Shown piece by piece: positions 45,781 through 54,841 of a stretch of DNA of 64,000 nt; the stretch's first letter is position 1, and each line of letters begins with the position of its first letter. The stretch spans positions 29,488 through 93,487 of the forward strand of contig JAFPBO010000002.1 in the NCBI GenBank assembly GCA_017390475.1, given 5' to 3'. Both the position numbers and the translations under genes were made by a program. The notes beneath the pieces are model-generated. The model was not told where the DNA came from and ran no database searches. It saw only the letters and a program-made list of their open reading frames with translations. This DNA is from Loktanella sp. (GTDB lineage Bacteria > Pseudomonadota > Alphaproteobacteria > Rhodobacterales > Rhodobacteraceae).

Positions 45781-45801
45781 TTGATACTATGATAATCTGT
45801 C

Positions 45802-48910
<3,109 letters not shown>

Positions 48911-48929
<19 letters not shown>

Positions 48930-49321
48930 TGTGTTCTCCAGAAAATGTCCAGCCCGTCGCGGACGCGGGCAATATCGGTGGCGGTTCCCGCAAGCTCGAA
49001 CCGGTAGAGCACGGGTACGTCGCATTTGCGGGCGATCACATCACCAGCAAGGGCAAAGGTGGTGCCGAAATTGCGGTTTCCCCCGGCGATGACACCGCGC
49101 AACAAGTCGCGTCGTGCCGGGTCGTTCAGAAAGCGGATCACCTGTTTCGGCACGGCACCGCGCCCTTCGCCATCGGCAAAAGTCGGGCAGATCAGCACGA
49201 AAGGCAGCGTTGGTGCCGGGCCAGCATCAGGTCCCGCGATACGATCGGCGGGCAGGCCAAGCGCCTGCACGAACCGCGCCGTATTGCCGGAACGTGACGA
49301 ATAATAGACCAGCCCGCCCAT
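48911..49321 (-). CDS. nrdI: Flavodoxin-like NrdI protein
   Basis: A 136-residue NrdI, the same length as E. coli Nrd[14 protein letters not shown] is the FMN phosphate loop, and [19 protein letters not shown] is characteristic of the family. NrdI supplies the oxidant for assembly of the Mn cofactor of NrdF. Located between nrdH (5-bp gap) and nrdE (19-bp overlap). Confidence 0.93.
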
Positions 49322-49326
49322 CGCAT

Positions 49327-49548
49327 TCAGGCCAGTTGGCCGATCAGGTCGGGACGGAACCCGGCCCAGTGATCATCCCCCGCAATCACCACCGGGGCTT
49401 GTCGGTAGCCAAGCGCGCTGACGCGGTCCATCGCGGCGTCATCCTGTGTCAGGTCGATCAGGTTGTAATCCAAACCACGGGCTTCCAGCGCGCGGGTGGT
49501 TGCGGTGCATTGCACGCAGGCCGGTTTGGAATAAACGGTGATTGTCAT
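49327..49548 (-). CDS. nrdH: Glutaredoxin-like NrdH protein
   Basis: A 73-residue thioredoxin-fold protein with the redox motif CVQC at residues 11-14 (the usual family motif), [19 protein letters not shown] in the C-terminal half. It reduces NrdE. First gene of the operon; its ribosome binding site (AGGGA at 49560-49556) lies within a hairpin downstream of the cobalamin riboswitch. Confidence 0.93.
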
Positions 49549-49554
49549 GTCTTG

Positions 49555-49581
49555 GTCCCTTATATGTTATCAGGCAGGGAC
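49555..49581 (-). promoter_or_regulatory. RBS-sequestering hairpin (riboswitch expression platform)
   Basis: On the minus strand GTCCCT (49581-49576) can pair fully with AGGGAC (49560-49555); the latter contains the nrdH ribosome binding site, 7 nt before the ATG at 49548. A ligand-bound riboswitch could favour this hairpin and stop translation. The pairing is seen in the sequence; its use is inferred. Confidence 0.55.
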
Positions 49582-49660
49582 ACCGGACCCGCGGCAGGCC
49601 AACAGCCCCCACGTATCGCTAGCGCGCCCCAAGGCCCTCCGCCTTTGGTCATCGTATCTG

Positions 49661-49822
49661 GCTTTGGCAGGTTTCCTGGCTCGCGGGTCGATGCGCGGCT
49701 GGCCTTCCCAGGGGTTTCCCAGTGGCGTTTCAGCTTCGCTCGCCGCTTACAGTTGCGGGGGCAGCACCGGAATTGCACCGGCTTCCCTCTTAGCTAACGA
49801 AATGACTCGGAAGCACCAAAGC
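49661..49822 (-). promoter_or_regulatory. Cobalamin (B12) riboswitch aptamer upstream of nrdHIEF
   Basis: On the minus strand the region carries the cobalamin riboswitch consensus blocks in order: GGGAAGCCGGTGCAATTCC, GCTGCCCCCGCAACTGTAA, GCCACTGGGAAACCCC, and GAGCCAGGAAACCTGCC. The closing P1 stem is visible as GCTTTGG (5' end, 49822-49816) with CCAAAGC (49667-49661). A promoter ends just before it. It senses adenosylcobalamin and normally represses when B12 is bound; here it would lower the B12-independent reductase. Confidence 0.93.
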
Positions 49823-49828
49823 ATCTGC

Positions 49829-49858
49829 ATATTGGGCCGCAGGTCATGGTGATGTCAA
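49829..49858 (-). promoter_or_regulatory. Sigma-70 promoter of riboswitch-nrdHIEF
   Basis: TTGACA (49858-49853), 18 bp, CAATAT (49834-49829) on the minus strand. The expected start of transcription is near 49822, exactly the first base of the riboswitch P1 stem, which supports both calls. Confidence 0.6.
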
Positions 49859-49948
49859 TATATAGATATAAGCTAAGGCCAAGATTGCCGCAGCGGGGCG
49901 CTGCGAGACCTGAAAAGACAGGCTTTTGCAAGGGCACCTGCCTGCTAC

Positions 49949-49960
49949 TCTTACGTAAGA
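49949..49960. promoter_or_regulatory. 12-bp perfect palindrome TCTTACGTAAGA
   Basis: A perfect palindrome in the 515-bp gap between nrdH and the ABC operon, followed by an A/T-rich stretch. It may be an operator for either divergent unit; no regulator is identified. Confidence 0.35.
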
Positions 49961-50021
49961 AAAAAATATTAATTTTGCATATTGCGGGCTGTGCCGATCC
50001 AGCGCAGATTACCCCGGCATT

Positions 50022-50034
50022 GTTACATAGTAAC
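50022..50034. promoter_or_regulatory. GTTAC-ATA-GTAAC dyad, candidate Zur-like operator
   Basis: A perfect 5-bp inverted repeat with a 3-bp spacer, about 30 bp before the start of the ABC operon. It resembles the GTTAT...ATAAC core of alphaproteobacterial Zur sites, which would fit a metal-related importer; the match is partial. Confidence 0.35.
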
Positions 50035-50063
50035 GGCAAACCGCAATTTTCCCGGAGAATGCC

Positions 50064-51614
50064 ATGTCTCAATTGATCCGCGCCCCCCTGTTGCTTGCGG
50101 CGCTTTCCCTTGTAGCGTTGCCCGCCGTCGCGCAGAATGAGGTGCCTGTGATGACGATCTCGCTCAGCGGCAGCGCGCCTGAATCGGTTCCGAATCCGCG
50201 TGCGCAGGGAGCCGCCTGGCATTTGGGGCGGGCCGGAATTGCCGAGACCTTGCTGCGGCTTGATCAAGACCTGCGGCTGGCACCACTGCTGGCGACCGAC
50301 TGGGAAAATACAGCGCCTGATACATGGGTGCTGACCCTGCGCGACGATGTGACGTTTCACGACGGCAGCCTGCTGGATGGCGCGGCGGTCAAAGCCTCCT
50401 TCGACGTGCAGGGCGATGAACAACAATCCGCCTACAACCCACGCCTGATGCGTTTGCTGGACCTTGCGGCAATCGAAACGGACGGCTTCACTGTCACCTT
50501 CCGCACCAATGCACCCAATGCCGCCTTTCCCTATGCGCTGGTTGAACCGACAGCCGCCATCCTGCGCCCCGCAGGCACCGCCGATCTGCCGCTGATCGCA
50601 ACGGGGCCTTATGTTTTTGTCGCCAATGAGCCAGGCAGACGGCTAAGCGCGCGGGCCTTCCCTGACTATTGGGGCGGTGTGCCCGCCTTGGCTGGGGTCC
50701 ATCTGGACACGATCACTGATCTGCAAACCGCGCGGCTGGCTTTGATGGCTGGCGATACCGATCTTGCCTTTGACTTTCCCGAAACGGATTTCGCCCGATT
50801 GCAACGCGACGGTGTGGGCGATCTGCAATTGTTCAGCGCGCCGACAGCGCGATTGTTTTTTATGACCGCCAATCTGCGCAACGGCCCTTTGTCTGCCCCC
50901 GCAATCCGCGAGGCAGTGTCGTTGGCCATTGACCGCGATGTGCTGGTCGATATCGCGGCTGGCGGCGTCGGTGCCGTGCCTGCGCGCACAATTTTTCCCG
51001 AAATTATGGCTGACTGGATCAACCGCGATATGACGCTGACCGATGATCCCGCCCGCGCCGCTGCCTTGCTGGATGCCGCTGGCGCTGTGGACAGCAACGG
51101 CGACGGGCTGCGCGACTGGAACGGCGCGCCTTTGGTGCTGCGACTGGCCACTTATGAAGGGCGCGCCGCGCTTCGTCCTGCCGCCGAGACGATGCAGGCG
51201 ATGTTGGGTGCCGTGGGTATCGGCGTCGAGGTCCGTGTTGCCGAATTTGACGCCAATAATGCCGCCCTGCGCGCGGGTGAGATCGATCTGCATCTACAGG
51301 CCTGGGTGACTGCCCCTGTCGGTGATCCCGGCTATTTCCCCGAGACGCTGTTCGTATCCGATGCGGGGCTGAACGATGGCGGCTATGCAAACGAACGGCT
51401 GGATGGATTGCTGGTCGCTGCGCGCACCGCCTTTGATCCCGGCGAAAGACGCGCGATCTTTGACGAAGTGCAGGAGATTTTGCTGACAGACCTGCCGCTG
51501 ATCCCGCTGTTCCATGCGACGCAAACCTCGGCCGGTGCGATGGGGCTGCGCGGCTTTGCGATCCATCCGGCTGAAACAGTGATCGTCACGCCGGAACTTG
51601 GTCTGGTCCCGTGA
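50064..51614 (+). CDS. Nickel/peptide-type ABC transporter substrate-binding protein
   Basis: A 516-residue family-5 periplasmic protein with signal peptide ending PAVAQ. Blocks typical of the NikA/DppA/CntA group are LGRAGIAETLLRLDQDLRLAPLLATDWENTAPDTWV-like N-terminal repeat pattern and TLRDDVTFHDGSLLDGAAVKASF. It could bind a peptide, nickel or a metal-metallophore complex. It starts an operon of six overlapping genes (GTGA with the ATPase). A GGAGA precedes the ATG. The ligand is not determined. Confidence 0.8.
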   Translation: MSQLIRAPLLLAALSLVALPAVAQNEVPVMTISLSGSAPESVPNPRAQGAAWHLGRAGIAETLLRLDQDLRLAPLLATDWENTAPDTWVLTLRDDVTFHDGSLLDGAAVKASFDVQGDEQQSAYNPRLMRLLDLAAIETDGFTVTFRTNAPNAAFPYALVEPTAAILRPAGTADLPLIATGPYVFVANEPGRRLSARAFPDYWGGVPALAGVHLDTITDLQTARLALMAGDTDLAFDFPETDFARLQRDGVGDLQLFSAPTARLFFMTANLRNGPLSAPAIREAVSLAIDRDVLVDIAAGGVGAVPARTIFPEIMADWINRDMTLTDDPARAAALLDAAGAVDSNGDGLRDWNGAPLVLRLATYEGRAALRPAAETMQAMLGAVGIGVEVRVAEFDANNAALRAGEIDLHLQAWVTAPVGDPGYFPETLFVSDAGLNDGGYANERLDGLLVAARTAFDPGERRAIFDEVQEILLTDLPLIPLFHATQTSAGAMGLRGFAIHPAETVIVTPELGLVP

Positions 51615-53071
51615 GCGATCCGATCCTGAAAGTCCAATCCCTGTCAGCGCAGATTGGCGATACGCCGGTGCTGCAAGAGGCTGATCTGATCATCCGCCCC
51701 GGCGAATGCGTCGCACTGGTCGGGCCCTCTGGCGCTGGCAAAACCTCGCTTTTGCGGATGGCGCTGGGGCTTGACCGACCTGCCCGCCGTGTGGCGGGGC
51801 GGCGGTTTTTGCTGGGGCAGGATATCGACGGGCTGCGCCCCCGCGCCTTGCGGATGCTGCGCGCGGGGGCGGTTGGATTTACCCCGCAGAACCCCGCCGC
51901 CGGGCTTGATCCGCTGGACCGGCTGTCACTGGTCTGGTTGCACACGGCACAGGCCCGCGGCGGCGATACCGGCCCCGCCGCGCGCGCCGCTGCACTGGCC
52001 GCTGTCGGCCTGCCGGATTGCGGCGATGCCTTTCCGCATCAATGGAGCAGGGGGATGCTGCAACGCTTTCTGATTGCGCTGACAAGGCTGGGCGATCCGG
52101 CGCTGACGGTGCTGGACGAACCGACCTCGGCGCTGGACCCCGTGATCGCCGCACAGGTGATGCAGCAGGAGGCTGCCCGCGCAGCGGCGCTAGGCACGGC
52201 TTTGCTGATCGTCACCCATAATGCTGCATTGGCAGAGGGTATCGCCACCCGCGTGGTGCGGATGGAGGGCGGGAGGGTCATTGGTGATCGCGTCGCCCGC
52301 CCCGGCGTGGCACGCCGGGCCCTGCGCTGCGCCAGCTGCCCGGACGAGCCGGAAGATCGCGTATTGGATGTCAGCGGGCTGGCCGTGCGCCGTGGTGCAA
52401 GCATGGCGCTGTCCGACATCGCCCTGCATGTCAATGAAGGCGAAGCGCTGGTGGTGCTGGGCGAAAGCGGCGCCGGCAAGACCACCTTGCTGCGCGCCCT
52501 GGCGGGGATGGTTCCCTTTACCGCCGCACAGAGCCGGATCGCCCCCTGCGCGCTGGTGCTGCAGGACCCGATGGCAGCCATTTGCCCCGCGCATGATGTG
52601 GTGACAGCGGTGAGCGAACCGCTGCTGGCGCAGGGCATGCCGCGCCGCAAAGCCTTTGATCAGGCGGCAGAGGCCACAGCCGAGGCTGGCTTGCCCGCCA
52701 CATTGCTGTCGCGCCTGCCGCATCAATTGTCCTTGGGACAGGCGCAAAGGGTCTGTATCGCGCGGGCGCTGGTCGCGCGGCCAAGGCTGGTGCTTTTGGA
52801 TGAGCCGCTTTCAGCGCTGGACCCGGACGCGGGGGCCGGGATAGCGGCACTTTTGGGCCGTTTGCGCGCGCGGCACCGGCTGGCCTTGCTGATCGTGACC
52901 CATGATCTTGGCTTTGCCCGCGCCATTGCTGACCGTGTGGCGGTGCTGCGCGCGGGGCGGGTCGTCGAACAGGCCAGCGCTGATGATTTCTTTGCCGCGC
53001 CTGCCAGCGATTATGGCCGCGCTTTGGTCAATGCCGGGCGGCGGCTGGGCGCGCTGGAGGCGGCAGCATGA
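51611..53071 (+). CDS. Fused double ABC ATPase, nickel/peptide type
   Basis: A 486-residue protein with two ATPase domains (about 1-230 and 250-486), equal to DppD and DppF fused. Walker A is GPSGAGKTS and GESGAGKTT; Walker B is LTVLDEPTSALD and LVLLDEPLSALD. Signature motifs deviate: WSRGMLQR in the first and LSLGQAQR in the second instead of LSGGQ. No C-terminal oligo_HPY domain is present. GTG start at 51611 within the stop codon of the binding protein gene; ATGA with the permease. Confidence 0.85.
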   Translation: MSDPILKVQSLSAQIGDTPVLQEADLIIRPGECVALVGPSGAGKTSLLRMALGLDRPARRVAGRRFLLGQDIDGLRPRALRMLRAGAVGFTPQNPAAGLDPLDRLSLVWLHTAQARGGDTGPAARAAALAAVGLPDCGDAFPHQWSRGMLQRFLIALTRLGDPALTVLDEPTSALDPVIAAQVMQQEAARAAALGTALLIVTHNAALAEGIATRVVRMEGGRVIGDRVARPGVARRALRCASCPDEPEDRVLDVSGLAVRRGASMALSDIALHVNEGEALVVLGESGAGKTTLLRALAGMVPFTAAQSRIAPCALVLQDPMAAICPAHDVVTAVSEPLLAQGMPRRKAFDQAAEATAEAGLPATLLSRLPHQLSLGQAQRVCIARALVARPRLVLLDEPLSALDPDAGAGIAALLGRLRARHRLALLIVTHDLGFARAIADRVAVLRAGRVVEQASADDFFAAPASDYGRALVNAGRRLGALEAAA

Positions 53072-54009
53072 AAGGCGCTGTTGTCCTTTCCGGGCTGTTG
53101 GTGACGATCCTGCTGGCCACATTGCTGACGATGGCGGTGCTGGATCTGGCCGATGGCGACAGGGCACGTTCCGTCGCTGCTGCGCGTTTCGGCGGCGAAG
53201 GGACCGCAGATGACGCGATGATCGCGGTGGTGCGCGCGGAACTGGGCCTCGACCGCCCGTTTCTGGCGCGGTACGCCGATTGGGCGGGGGCTGCCGTGAC
53301 TGGCGATCTGGGTCAGTCTTTCGTGACCAAAGAGCCGGTAGCGCAGATCCTGACCCGCGCCTTTGCAGTAACCGCGCCAATGGCGCTGGCGGCTTTTGTG
53401 TTGGGTATGGCGCTGGCGATCCCGCTGGGGGTTCTGGCCGCTGTCAGGCCGGGTGGCGTGATCGACCGGGGCACTGTCGCGCTGGCCTCGCTGGGGGCGG
53501 CGGCACCGCCATTCTGGCTGGGGCTGGCACTGATCGGGCTGTTCGCGGTGCAATGGCAGATTCTGCCTGCCTATGGTGCGGGCACAGTGGCGCATCTGGT
53601 GCTGCCTGCCGTCACGCTGGCGGTCTGGGTCATGGCCTCGCATACCCGGCTGATCCGCAGCTTCATGCGCGAGGCACTGGCGGCCCCGCATCTGGATGCG
53701 CTACGCCTGCGCGGTGTGTCGGAGTTCCGCATCCTGACCCGGCATGTCGCGCGTCCCGTTGCGGGTGCCATGGCCCCGCTGCTGACGCTTGATCTGGTCG
53801 GTCTGCTGGAAGGGGCCGTGGTGATCGAGGTGGTCTTTGCCCGCCCCGGCCTTGGCCTGACCTTTGTCGAGGCCTTGCGCGCCCGTGACATGGCGGTGAT
53901 CCTGGGATTTGTGGCGTTTTCCGTCCTGCTTTATGCTGCTGCAAATGCCGCCGCCGATGTGATGTCACGCAGGCTGGACCCGCGTTTGCGTGAGGCATTG
54001 CATGTCTGA
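53068..54009 (+). CDS. ABC transporter permease, DppB/NikB type
   Basis: A 313-residue permease with the DppB/NikB layout: N-terminal membrane helix, a periplasmic stretch with ELGLDRPFLARYADWAGAAVTGDLGQSF, then five helices and the EAA loop PHLDALRLRGVSEFRILTRHVARPVAG. It overlaps the ATPase gene by 4 bp and the next permease gene by 8 bp. Confidence 0.87.
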   Translation: MKGAVVLSGLLVTILLATLLTMAVLDLADGDRARSVAAARFGGEGTADDAMIAVVRAELGLDRPFLARYADWAGAAVTGDLGQSFVTKEPVAQILTRAFAVTAPMALAAFVLGMALAIPLGVLAAVRPGGVIDRGTVALASLGAAAPPFWLGLALIGLFAVQWQILPAYGAGTVAHLVLPAVTLAVWVMASHTRLIRSFMREALAAPHLDALRLRGVSEFRILTRHVARPVAGAMAPLLTLDLVGLLEGAVVIEVVFARPGLGLTFVEALRARDMAVILGFVAFSVLLYAAANAAADVMSRRLDPRLREALHV

Positions 54010-54841
54010 CCTCACTGCCCGCCGCGCGCGCTCGTCACTTTGGGATGCCATCTTGCTGGGCGCGATGCTGGTGCTGGTCGTGCTGGCCGCCGTCGGGCCC
54101 TGGCTGGTGCCCTCAAACCCCACCACCACCGATTTCGGGGCAAGATTGCAAAGCCCCTCTGCCGCCTATCCGCTGGGCACCGATGCCTTGGGCCGGGATC
54201 AATTGTCGCGGCTTTTGGCGGGCGCGCGCGCGACACTTGGGCTGGCGCTGATCATCTCGCTGGGTGCGGCGCTGCTGGGGCTGGCGGCGGGCCTTGCCGC
54301 AGCGGCGATGGGTGGCACTGGTGACCGGCTGCTGACCCGCGCGACCGAAGTGTTGCAGGCTTTTCCCGAACTGATCGCGGCGCTGGCGATTGCGGCGCTG
54401 TTTGGTCCTTCAGTCGGCAATCTGGTGCTGGCGCTCGTCGTGACCGGCTGGATGCGCTATGCGCGGCTGACCCGGAGTATGGCACTGGCCATTGTGGCGC
54501 GCGACCATGTGGCACTGGCGCGGATGGCCGGGCTGTCGCGTCTGGCGGTGCTGCGCCGCCACGTCCTGCCGCTGATCCTGCCGGCGCTGCTGGTGATGTG
54601 GACCGGCGGCTGGGCGCGGTCGATCCTTGCCGTGTCGGCGCTCGGATTTCTGGGCTTTGGCATTCAGCCCCCGGCTGCGGAATGGGGCGCGATGCTGCTG
54701 GATGCCCGGCGGCATATGGTCGAAGCCCCGCATCTGATGTGGGCGCCGGGGCTGGCCATCCTGTTTGCGGTGCTGGCGATCAGCCTTGCCGGTGACCGTC
54801 TGCGTGATCTTTTTCCCTTTGATGAGGCCCGTGTCGCATGA
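54002..54841 (+). CDS. ABC transporter permease, DppC/NikC type
   Basis: A 279-residue permease with YPLGTDALGRDQLSRLLAGARATLGLAL, the DppC/NikC hallmark, and the EAA loop VALARMAGLSRLAVLRRHVLP. The ATG at 54002 overlaps the DppB-like gene; an earlier ATG at 53990 is possible. It ends in an ATGA overlap with the EamA gene. Confidence 0.87.
   Translation: MSDLTARRARSSLWDAILLGAMLVLVVLAAVGPWLVPSNPTTTDFGARLQSPSAAYPLGTDALGRDQLSRLLAGARATLGLALIISLGAALLGLAAGLAAAAMGGTGDRLLTRATEVLQAFPELIAALAIAALFGPSVGNLVLALVVTGWMRYARLTRSMALAIVARDHVALARMAGLSRLAVLRRHVLPLILPALLVMWTGGWARSILAVSALGFLGFGIQPPAAEWGAMLLDARRHMVEAPHLMWAPGLAILFAVLAISLAGDRLRDLFPFDEARVA

Follow-up and report, generated by a model that had tools for sequence, protein, structure and literature searches.

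A cobalamin riboswitch and a candidate NrdR operator upstream of a class Ib ribonucleotide reductase operon in Loktanella sp.

The nrdHIEF operon and its host genome

The window analysed here (the whole stretch of 64,000 nucleotides from a contig of Loktanella sp.) carries on its minus strand the genes of a ribonucleotide reductase. These are nrdH, a glutaredoxin-like electron donor (49327..49548, with its ATG from 49548; TIGR02194, 98.1 bits, cut-off 85.75), nrdI, a flavoprotein of class Ib cofactor assembly (48911..49321; TIGR00333, 139.6 bits, cut-off 74.65), nrdE, the class Ib large subunit (46785..49025; TIGR04170, 1204.2 bits, cut-off 750), and nrdF, the class Ib small subunit (45802..46797; TIGR04171, 472.9 bits, cut-off 355). 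All four exceed their NCBIfam cut-offs on the same strand and thus make up a complete class Ib, B12-independent reductase; the true start of nrdE probably lies inside the open reading frame given. Divergent from nrdH there is an ABC transporter set of the Opp/Nik type (window positions 50064-54841, permeases recognized by eye), and cmscan of the window reported no riboswitch on that side of nrdH.

The host genome (56 contigs, 4.13 Mb) also encodes class II reductases. Two NrdJ genes lie above the TIGR02504 cut-off, one with 593.2 bits in a 776-aa frame and the other, taken with its neighbour, with 566.9 bits in a 1207-aa frame, so that the B12-dependent reductase which the initial annotation had expected to find in the genome is indeed present. 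A genome-wide search with RF00174 returned three cobalamin riboswitches, the one in the window included. The second stands before genes for an ABC ATPase and for a periplasmic binding protein, which together resemble a B12 uptake system (judged by eye from the translations), and the third precedes a hupE-like gene and one for a CobW-like GTPase (names likewise given by eye), with a match to cobN about 2.5 kb past it. This cobN match (L148, C19:62607-66320 of the strain's own genome, 1582.5 bits) holds one in-frame TGA, which may reflect a sequencing error or a genuine interruption; despite it, the match suggests that the strain synthesizes B12.

The cobalamin aptamer and its counterparts in relatives

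Upstream of nrdH, a cobalamin riboswitch on the minus strand had been read from the sequence, with a search by the Rfam covariance model named as the way to check it. When cmscan was run on the whole window, RF00174 matched at 49835-49649 (minus strand) with 126.2 bits (cut-off 31.5, E 2.7e-31), over its full length (model positions 1-189 of 189), and as the sole Rfam match above cut-off. The search thus bears out the riboswitch, and the closing stem P1 that had been described is there as well, pairing GCTTTGG (from 49822) with CCAAAGC (from 49667). The 3′ end of the aptamer lies 100 nt from the nrdH ATG. Within the aptamer, the loop CCCCCG at 49756..49761 is what we take to be L5, the presumed half of a kissing loop, named so by comparison with the published layout. 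That layout, in which loop L13 of hairpin P13 pairs with L5, has been described for known cobalamin riboswitches (PMC9600662).

Two overlapping sets of loci served for comparison. In the family, 46 genomes with nrdI were available, and 37 of them (the window's included) have an RF00174 match above cut-off on the same strand as nrdH and 77-115 nt before it, with scores from 43.6 to 147.6 bits; the leaders of these 37 loci are the ones referred to below. The nine genomes lacking the riboswitch are G155, G165, G206, G228, G229, G375, G387, G389 and G445, among which G165 has a partial NrdI and yielded no nrdH. The other set consists of 80 named nrdE loci, the top 80 among 592 confirmed candidates. 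Here nrdH could be placed in 79 (by hand in L081), and the riboswitch is present in 70 and absent in nine, as called by nhmmer within at most 700 nt upstream; cmscan confirms the nine absences, and among the 70 the covariance model was applied to L054 alone (39.1 bits). At least G305 (L042), G375 (L072) and G342 (L066) belong to both sets.

Promoter and NrdR-box-like sites

The initial annotation had also placed a promoter directly ahead of the aptamer. Its elements are found as described, a -35 element TTGACA (49853..49858, minus strand) and, 18 nt past it, a -10 element CAATAT (49829..49834), and TTGAC occupies the same place in 36 of the 37 leaders, against 2.3 expected from shuffles. A generic sigma-70 scan, however, called no promoter there, the -10 element (3/6 to TATAAT) falling below the limit of the scan. 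Over the same 37 leaders, the successive -10 places hold C in 32, T or A in 34, A in 33, T in 24, A in 29 and T in 30. A transcription start about 7 nt past the -10 element would coincide with the first base of P1.

Conservation does not end with the -35 element. Relative to the initial T of TTGAC, C is found at -7 in 33/37 leaders, A at -3 in 34/37 and T at -2 in 35/37, and a plain promoter is therefore insufficient as an explanation. The 10-mer that ends in the TTG of TTGAC agrees with CWATATATWG in a mean of 8.35/10 positions across the leaders compared; this motif forms the core of the NrdR box, whose consensus is given as acaCwAtATaTwGtg (PMC4009431). A second box scores best at +31 among offsets from -45 to +45 (mean 7.05 in the 37 leaders, against a background of 2.91, sd 0.86), a score that owes part to the -10 element itself; C at +24, where the hexamer begins, and G at +33, outside it, each occur in 32/37 leaders.

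In the window, the upstream NrdR-box-like site CTATATATTG (49856..49865, minus strand, 10/10 to CWATATATWG) overlaps the -35 element and the downstream site CAATATGCAG (49825..49834, minus strand, 8/10) overlaps the -10 element. Together they score 18/20 at 31 bp, the best pair at a spacing of 31-32 anywhere in the window, with 15 for the next best. In 62 of the 70 named loci with the riboswitch, the best box pair starts 29-33 nt ahead of the first position of the aptamer model. Seven cobalamin riboswitches that precede other genes (two from the same genome, five from relatives) do not have this arrangement, with scores of at most 5/10 in the five that have a TTG[AC] and no TTG[AC] in the other two. 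A box-pair scan before the genome's own two nrdJ genes gave at best only 12 and 13 of 20, about the same as the shuffled means of 10.7-13.6 obtained elsewhere on longer stretches.

The genome contains one nrdR gene (TIGR00244, 162.8 bits, cut-off 124.65). Of the spacers between paired boxes, those of 15-17 bp were bound best by the four NrdR proteins tested in PMC12051234, and with start points 31 bp apart, boxes 15-16 bp long are separated by 15-16 bp, which is within that range. The pair in the window is thus like the known NrdR operators in its paired boxes and its spacer, and unlike those described in PMC12051234 and PMC4009431 in that its downstream box sits on the -10 element and reaches into the sequence that flanks the riboswitch on its 5′ side. 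From this agreement of motif, spacing and conservation we infer with some force that NrdR acts at the nrdHIEF promoter.

Hairpins between the aptamer and nrdH

Directly 3′ of the aptamer, at 49631..49645 (minus strand), lies the hairpin AAGGC-GGAGG-GCCTT. A hairpin of the form C(G[GA]NGG)G follows immediately after P1 in all 37 leaders, with loops GGAGG in 20, GGTGG in 10, GGCGG in six and GAAGG in one. For stem pairs 2-5, 105 of 112 cells (28 distinct sequences) hold standard pairs, of several types, compared with 64, 52 and 41 of 112 when the register is slid. This covarying hairpin is probably P13/L13, which its position right after P1 fits. In the L5-L13 pairing, a mismatch is expected at the central base of the L13 loop; L5 is apparently near-invariant, and covariation is therefore silent on the kissing interaction.

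Further downstream, the initial annotation had drawn a hairpin that masks the nrdH ribosome binding site (49555..49581, minus strand), in which an anti-Shine-Dalgarno (anti-SD) GTCCCT (49581-49576) would pair with the Shine-Dalgarno (SD) AGGGAC (49560-49555). Part of this claim stands, in that SD-anchored helices are longer than expected over the 37 leaders, while the leader of the window folded on its own is no better than its shuffles (z = 0.05) and a swap test on duplex energy, with starts re-picked in the 37 leaders, was not significant (2053/5000). Specifically, the longest helix anchored on the SD core averages 6.51 pairs in the own leaders, 5.34 in shuffled ones (the highest of 100 being 5.97) and 6.00 in swapped ones; the own value was reached in 6/3000 swaps with G-U pairs allowed and in 60/3000 with Watson-Crick pairs only, and all of these figures have to be discounted to some degree, as the test was devised after the outcomes of two other SD tests. 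The first SD swap test (35 leaders, some start codons misplaced) gave a weak 37/2000. Support for the masking hairpin, which comes from sequence comparison, is accordingly modest. An anti-anti-SD pairing of L13/P13 with the anti-SD was also considered and not accepted: it runs to nine contiguous pairs in leaders such as those of L018, L017, L126 and L037, and own leaders are no better than swapped ones (882/2000; 35 leaders, L034 and L119 left out).

The level of control bears on the strongest of the alternatives, namely that the riboswitch works mainly on transcription, through an exposed Rho entry site or early termination, and that the SD hairpin is secondary. The title of Borovok 2006 reports B12 control of Streptomyces nrdABS at transcription, and leaders of 77-115 nt, as found in the 37 loci, leave room for other signals. 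We nevertheless hold this to be unlikely, given that a scan for intrinsic terminator-like sites returned none in 49300-50100, by which a platform of the intrinsic-terminator kind is ruled out, and given the SD-anchored helices described above, longer than in shuffled and swapped leaders. Without an intrinsic terminator-like site, translation is the likelier level of control; control at translation is favoured, and we hold its details with moderate trust.

Retention of the riboswitch and its link with class II NrdJ

If the RNA spares the cell a B12-independent enzyme while NrdJ can work, as the initial annotation had reasoned (NrdJ with B12, NrdHIEF when it is scarce), the riboswitch should go with NrdJ. 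Among the 46 family genomes with nrdI it does, and this, next to the two NrdJ genes of the strain, supports the reasoning. NrdJ exceeds the TIGR02504 cut-off in 42 of the 46, the exceptions being G229, G387, G389 and G445; the riboswitch is found in 37 of the 42 genomes with NrdJ (five lack it) and in none of the four without, a difference with a Fisher p of 0.0008 that ignores kinship and has only four NrdJ-less genomes on one side. Removing G165 and G420 changes p to 0.0005, kinship again being ignored. PF02867 detects no reductase large subunit other than NrdE in G229 and G387. The same model finds a diverged class II-like frame in G389 (L144; 889 aa, 108.5 bits) and a very weak one in G445 (L145; 665 aa, 21.9 bits, below the cut-off of 23.9); these frames are possibly decaying or repurposed NrdJ.

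A stricter rule, by which absence of the riboswitch would mean absence of class II, was rejected, because seven of the nine riboswitch-less named loci belong to genomes with NF005736 above cut-off; the matches of the remaining two (L072 and L075) are below it. Of the genomes with the 80 named loci, 50 were scored with this model (L039-L081 plus seven of the other 37), and 44 exceed the cut-off. The riboswitch-bearing L041, L043, L047 and L056 are below it, with other, shorter or split matches there.

The nine riboswitch-less named loci still have box pairs. Their best pairs score 15-19 in eight Paracoccus loci and 14 in Haematobacter (out of 20), against shuffled means of about 12, and a lenient scan up to E 1 found nothing of the aptamer in L028, L020, L057, L060 and L074; apparently the unit can lose its RNA half and keep its operator half. 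Low-scoring aptamers are also found, in L024 (29.2 bits, Rfam cut-off 31.5), L054 (39.1) and L119 (43.6), where parts of the aptamer follow a promoter that, judged by eye, is still in place. The persistence of the boxes lends something to a second alternative, in which NrdR control alone matters and constant B12 synthesis by the cell makes B12 a weak signal, with nrdHIEF nearly always off. The nrdR gene, a box pair that is the best in the window and the CobN match would all suit it. Against it stands the retention of the aptamer in 37/46 family nrdI genomes and 70/79 named loci (overlapping sets), which would be unexpected if the aptamer had no effect, and we regard this alternative as distinctly improbable.

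Proposed regulation of nrdHIEF

The reading that we prefer, in which B12 and deoxynucleotides both count, is that promoter, NrdR operator and riboswitch form one piece of DNA that gates a class Ib reductase by B12 and dNTP, and we consider it likely. Within it, a B12-sensing RNA very probably shuts off the B12-independent reductase when B12 is available for NrdJ. B12 control at nrdHIEF is supported because the genome holds two NrdJ genes, one NrdR gene and the CobN match.

In such a scheme, the transcript would begin with the first bases of the aptamer, and NrdR would repress transcription when deoxynucleotides are plentiful. On binding of adenosylcobalamin, a pairing would form between L5 of the aptamer and L13 of the hairpin that follows, and in this ligand-bound state the nrdH Shine-Dalgarno is predicted to be held in the downstream hairpin, through a coupling that we infer, so that nrdHIEF would stay untranslated. 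With B12 present, class II NrdJ would then be in use; with B12 absent and dNTP low, nrdHIEF would be made.

A fuller version of the proposal adds that the unit, with box 1 on the -35 element, box 2 on the -10 element and the start at P1, is kept in a nearly fixed register, travels as a mobile cassette and can lose its RNA half by decay; towards this version we lean only slightly. If such a two-signal unit is real, the B12-independent reductase would be made solely at low dNTP and in the absence of B12. The unit would bear on how alphaproteobacteria may let the supply of B12 decide between a B12-dependent and a B12-independent route to DNA precursors. It is testable, and many natural variants exist, some of them low-scoring and apparently decayed, which let one ask when riboswitches persist or vanish.

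Relation to known systems

In E. coli btuB, a cobalamin aptamer with an L5-L13 kissing loop exerts control at the ribosome binding site. There the regulated function is B12 uptake, whereas the leader in the window has a P13 with a G[GA]NGG loop and then a separate SD hairpin. Another case is nrdABS of Streptomyces coelicolor, which reportedly is under a B12 riboswitch that acts at transcription. Both cases have a cobalamin riboswitch ahead of a B12-independent class I reductase; the Streptomyces enzyme is of class Ia, in an actinobacterium and controlled at transcription, whereas that of the window is of class Ib, with control probably at translation. A B12 riboswitch over some reductases of other microbes is also mentioned in PMC5962746, which cites Borovok 2006 on Streptomyces nrdABS, and in S. 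coelicolor NrdR is described as binding the promoters of the class Ia and class II reductases (PMC4009431).

B12 elements also precede nrdDG in Desulfovibrio vulgaris and Desulfuromonas, whose genomes likewise have NrdJ, and the authors of that work propose that B12 represses the B12-independent isozyme, stating that there were earlier cases in other genomes (PMC545781). As described there, these deltaproteobacterial loci resemble the window in having a B12 element ahead of a B12-independent reductase, with NrdJ in the genome, and differ in that the enzyme is of class III, while the window has a class Ib enzyme in an alphaproteobacterium and an NrdR-box-like operator on the promoter. A parallel outside nucleotide metabolism is metE of Priestia megaterium, where a cobalamin riboswitch silences a B12-independent isozyme; B. 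subtilis, which has metE and no metH, is described in the same paper as having no such riboswitch at metE (PMC9600662). The silenced isozyme is the point of likeness, and the B. subtilis case matches the rule seen with NrdJ in the family of the window; the enzyme is a methionine synthase there and a ribonucleotide reductase here.

Published cases thus already exist in which B12 controls a B12-independent reductase in a genome that has NrdJ (nrdDG; nrdABS). For a class Ib nrdHIEF under a B12 riboswitch we found no mention in a search mostly of titles and abstracts, and we do not claim that it is absent from print. The part of most interest appears to be the NrdR operator fused with a riboswitch, as a compact unit in a range of alphaproteobacteria. 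Beyond what the initial annotation contained, the analysis adds an operator of NrdR-box-like sites coinciding with the promoter, the probable P13/L13 hairpin and the patchy distribution in the genus.

Distribution and origin of the unit

Within the genus, nrdI occurs in one of 56 genomes, that of the strain itself. It was found in 46 of the 394 family genomes searched (44 above cut-off) and in six of 385 searched across the class (five above cut-off). The highest NrdE identity among the best 80 of 592 candidates is 87%, to Paracoccus marinus. In a quick NrdE tree of 81 rows, the NrdE of the window groups with P. marinus, an uncultured Rhodobacteraceae and two Lautropia (SH-aLRT 91), nested among mostly Rhodobacteraceae loci that bear the riboswitch. 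Presence and absence of the riboswitch require at least three changes on this tree, two of them forced by well-supported branches, against a shuffled mean of 8.7. The best plasmid match, on a 78-kb plasmid of Marinibacterium anthonyi, covers 99% of 45800-49900 at 80.8% DNA identity. The simplest reading would be that the operon was acquired along with its control region, and the unit was probably taken over whole from another Rhodobacteraceae lineage.

The idea that the riboswitch is a relic of such a transfer and no longer regulates nrdHIEF in the strain draws on the solitary operon in the genus, the low-scoring copies in relatives and the changes on the tree; it is very improbable, as the copy in the window is complete, scores 126.2 bits with RF00174 and retains P1, P13, the promoter and the NrdR-box-like sites.

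Several further observations concern the surroundings of related operons. On the Marinibacterium plasmid, nrdF is directly followed by csoR and by rcnA, a gene for nickel/cobalt efflux (L147, 10308-11480), so that cobalt handling adjoins the operon. The two Lautropia loci (L043 and L056), from betaproteobacterial Burkholderiaceae, have nrdHIEF with the riboswitch within the Rhodobacteraceae part of the NrdE tree; the NrdR box pair of L056 scores 18/20 at another place, and L043 has none above background. A locus titled Nocardioides marinus (L070) shows an nrdHIEF of alphaproteobacterial type with the riboswitch and is probably a mislabelled or contaminated assembly. In five loci a second cobalamin riboswitch lies beside the nrd leader, on the opposite strand and pointing away (L011 636-829, L014 2567-2763, L017 2794-2984, L030 627-826 and L037 2598-2797). 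In two Paracoccus loci, a TPP riboswitch lies on the opposite strand, at most about 4.2 kb upstream of nrdH (L054 3858-3952 and L069 197-303).
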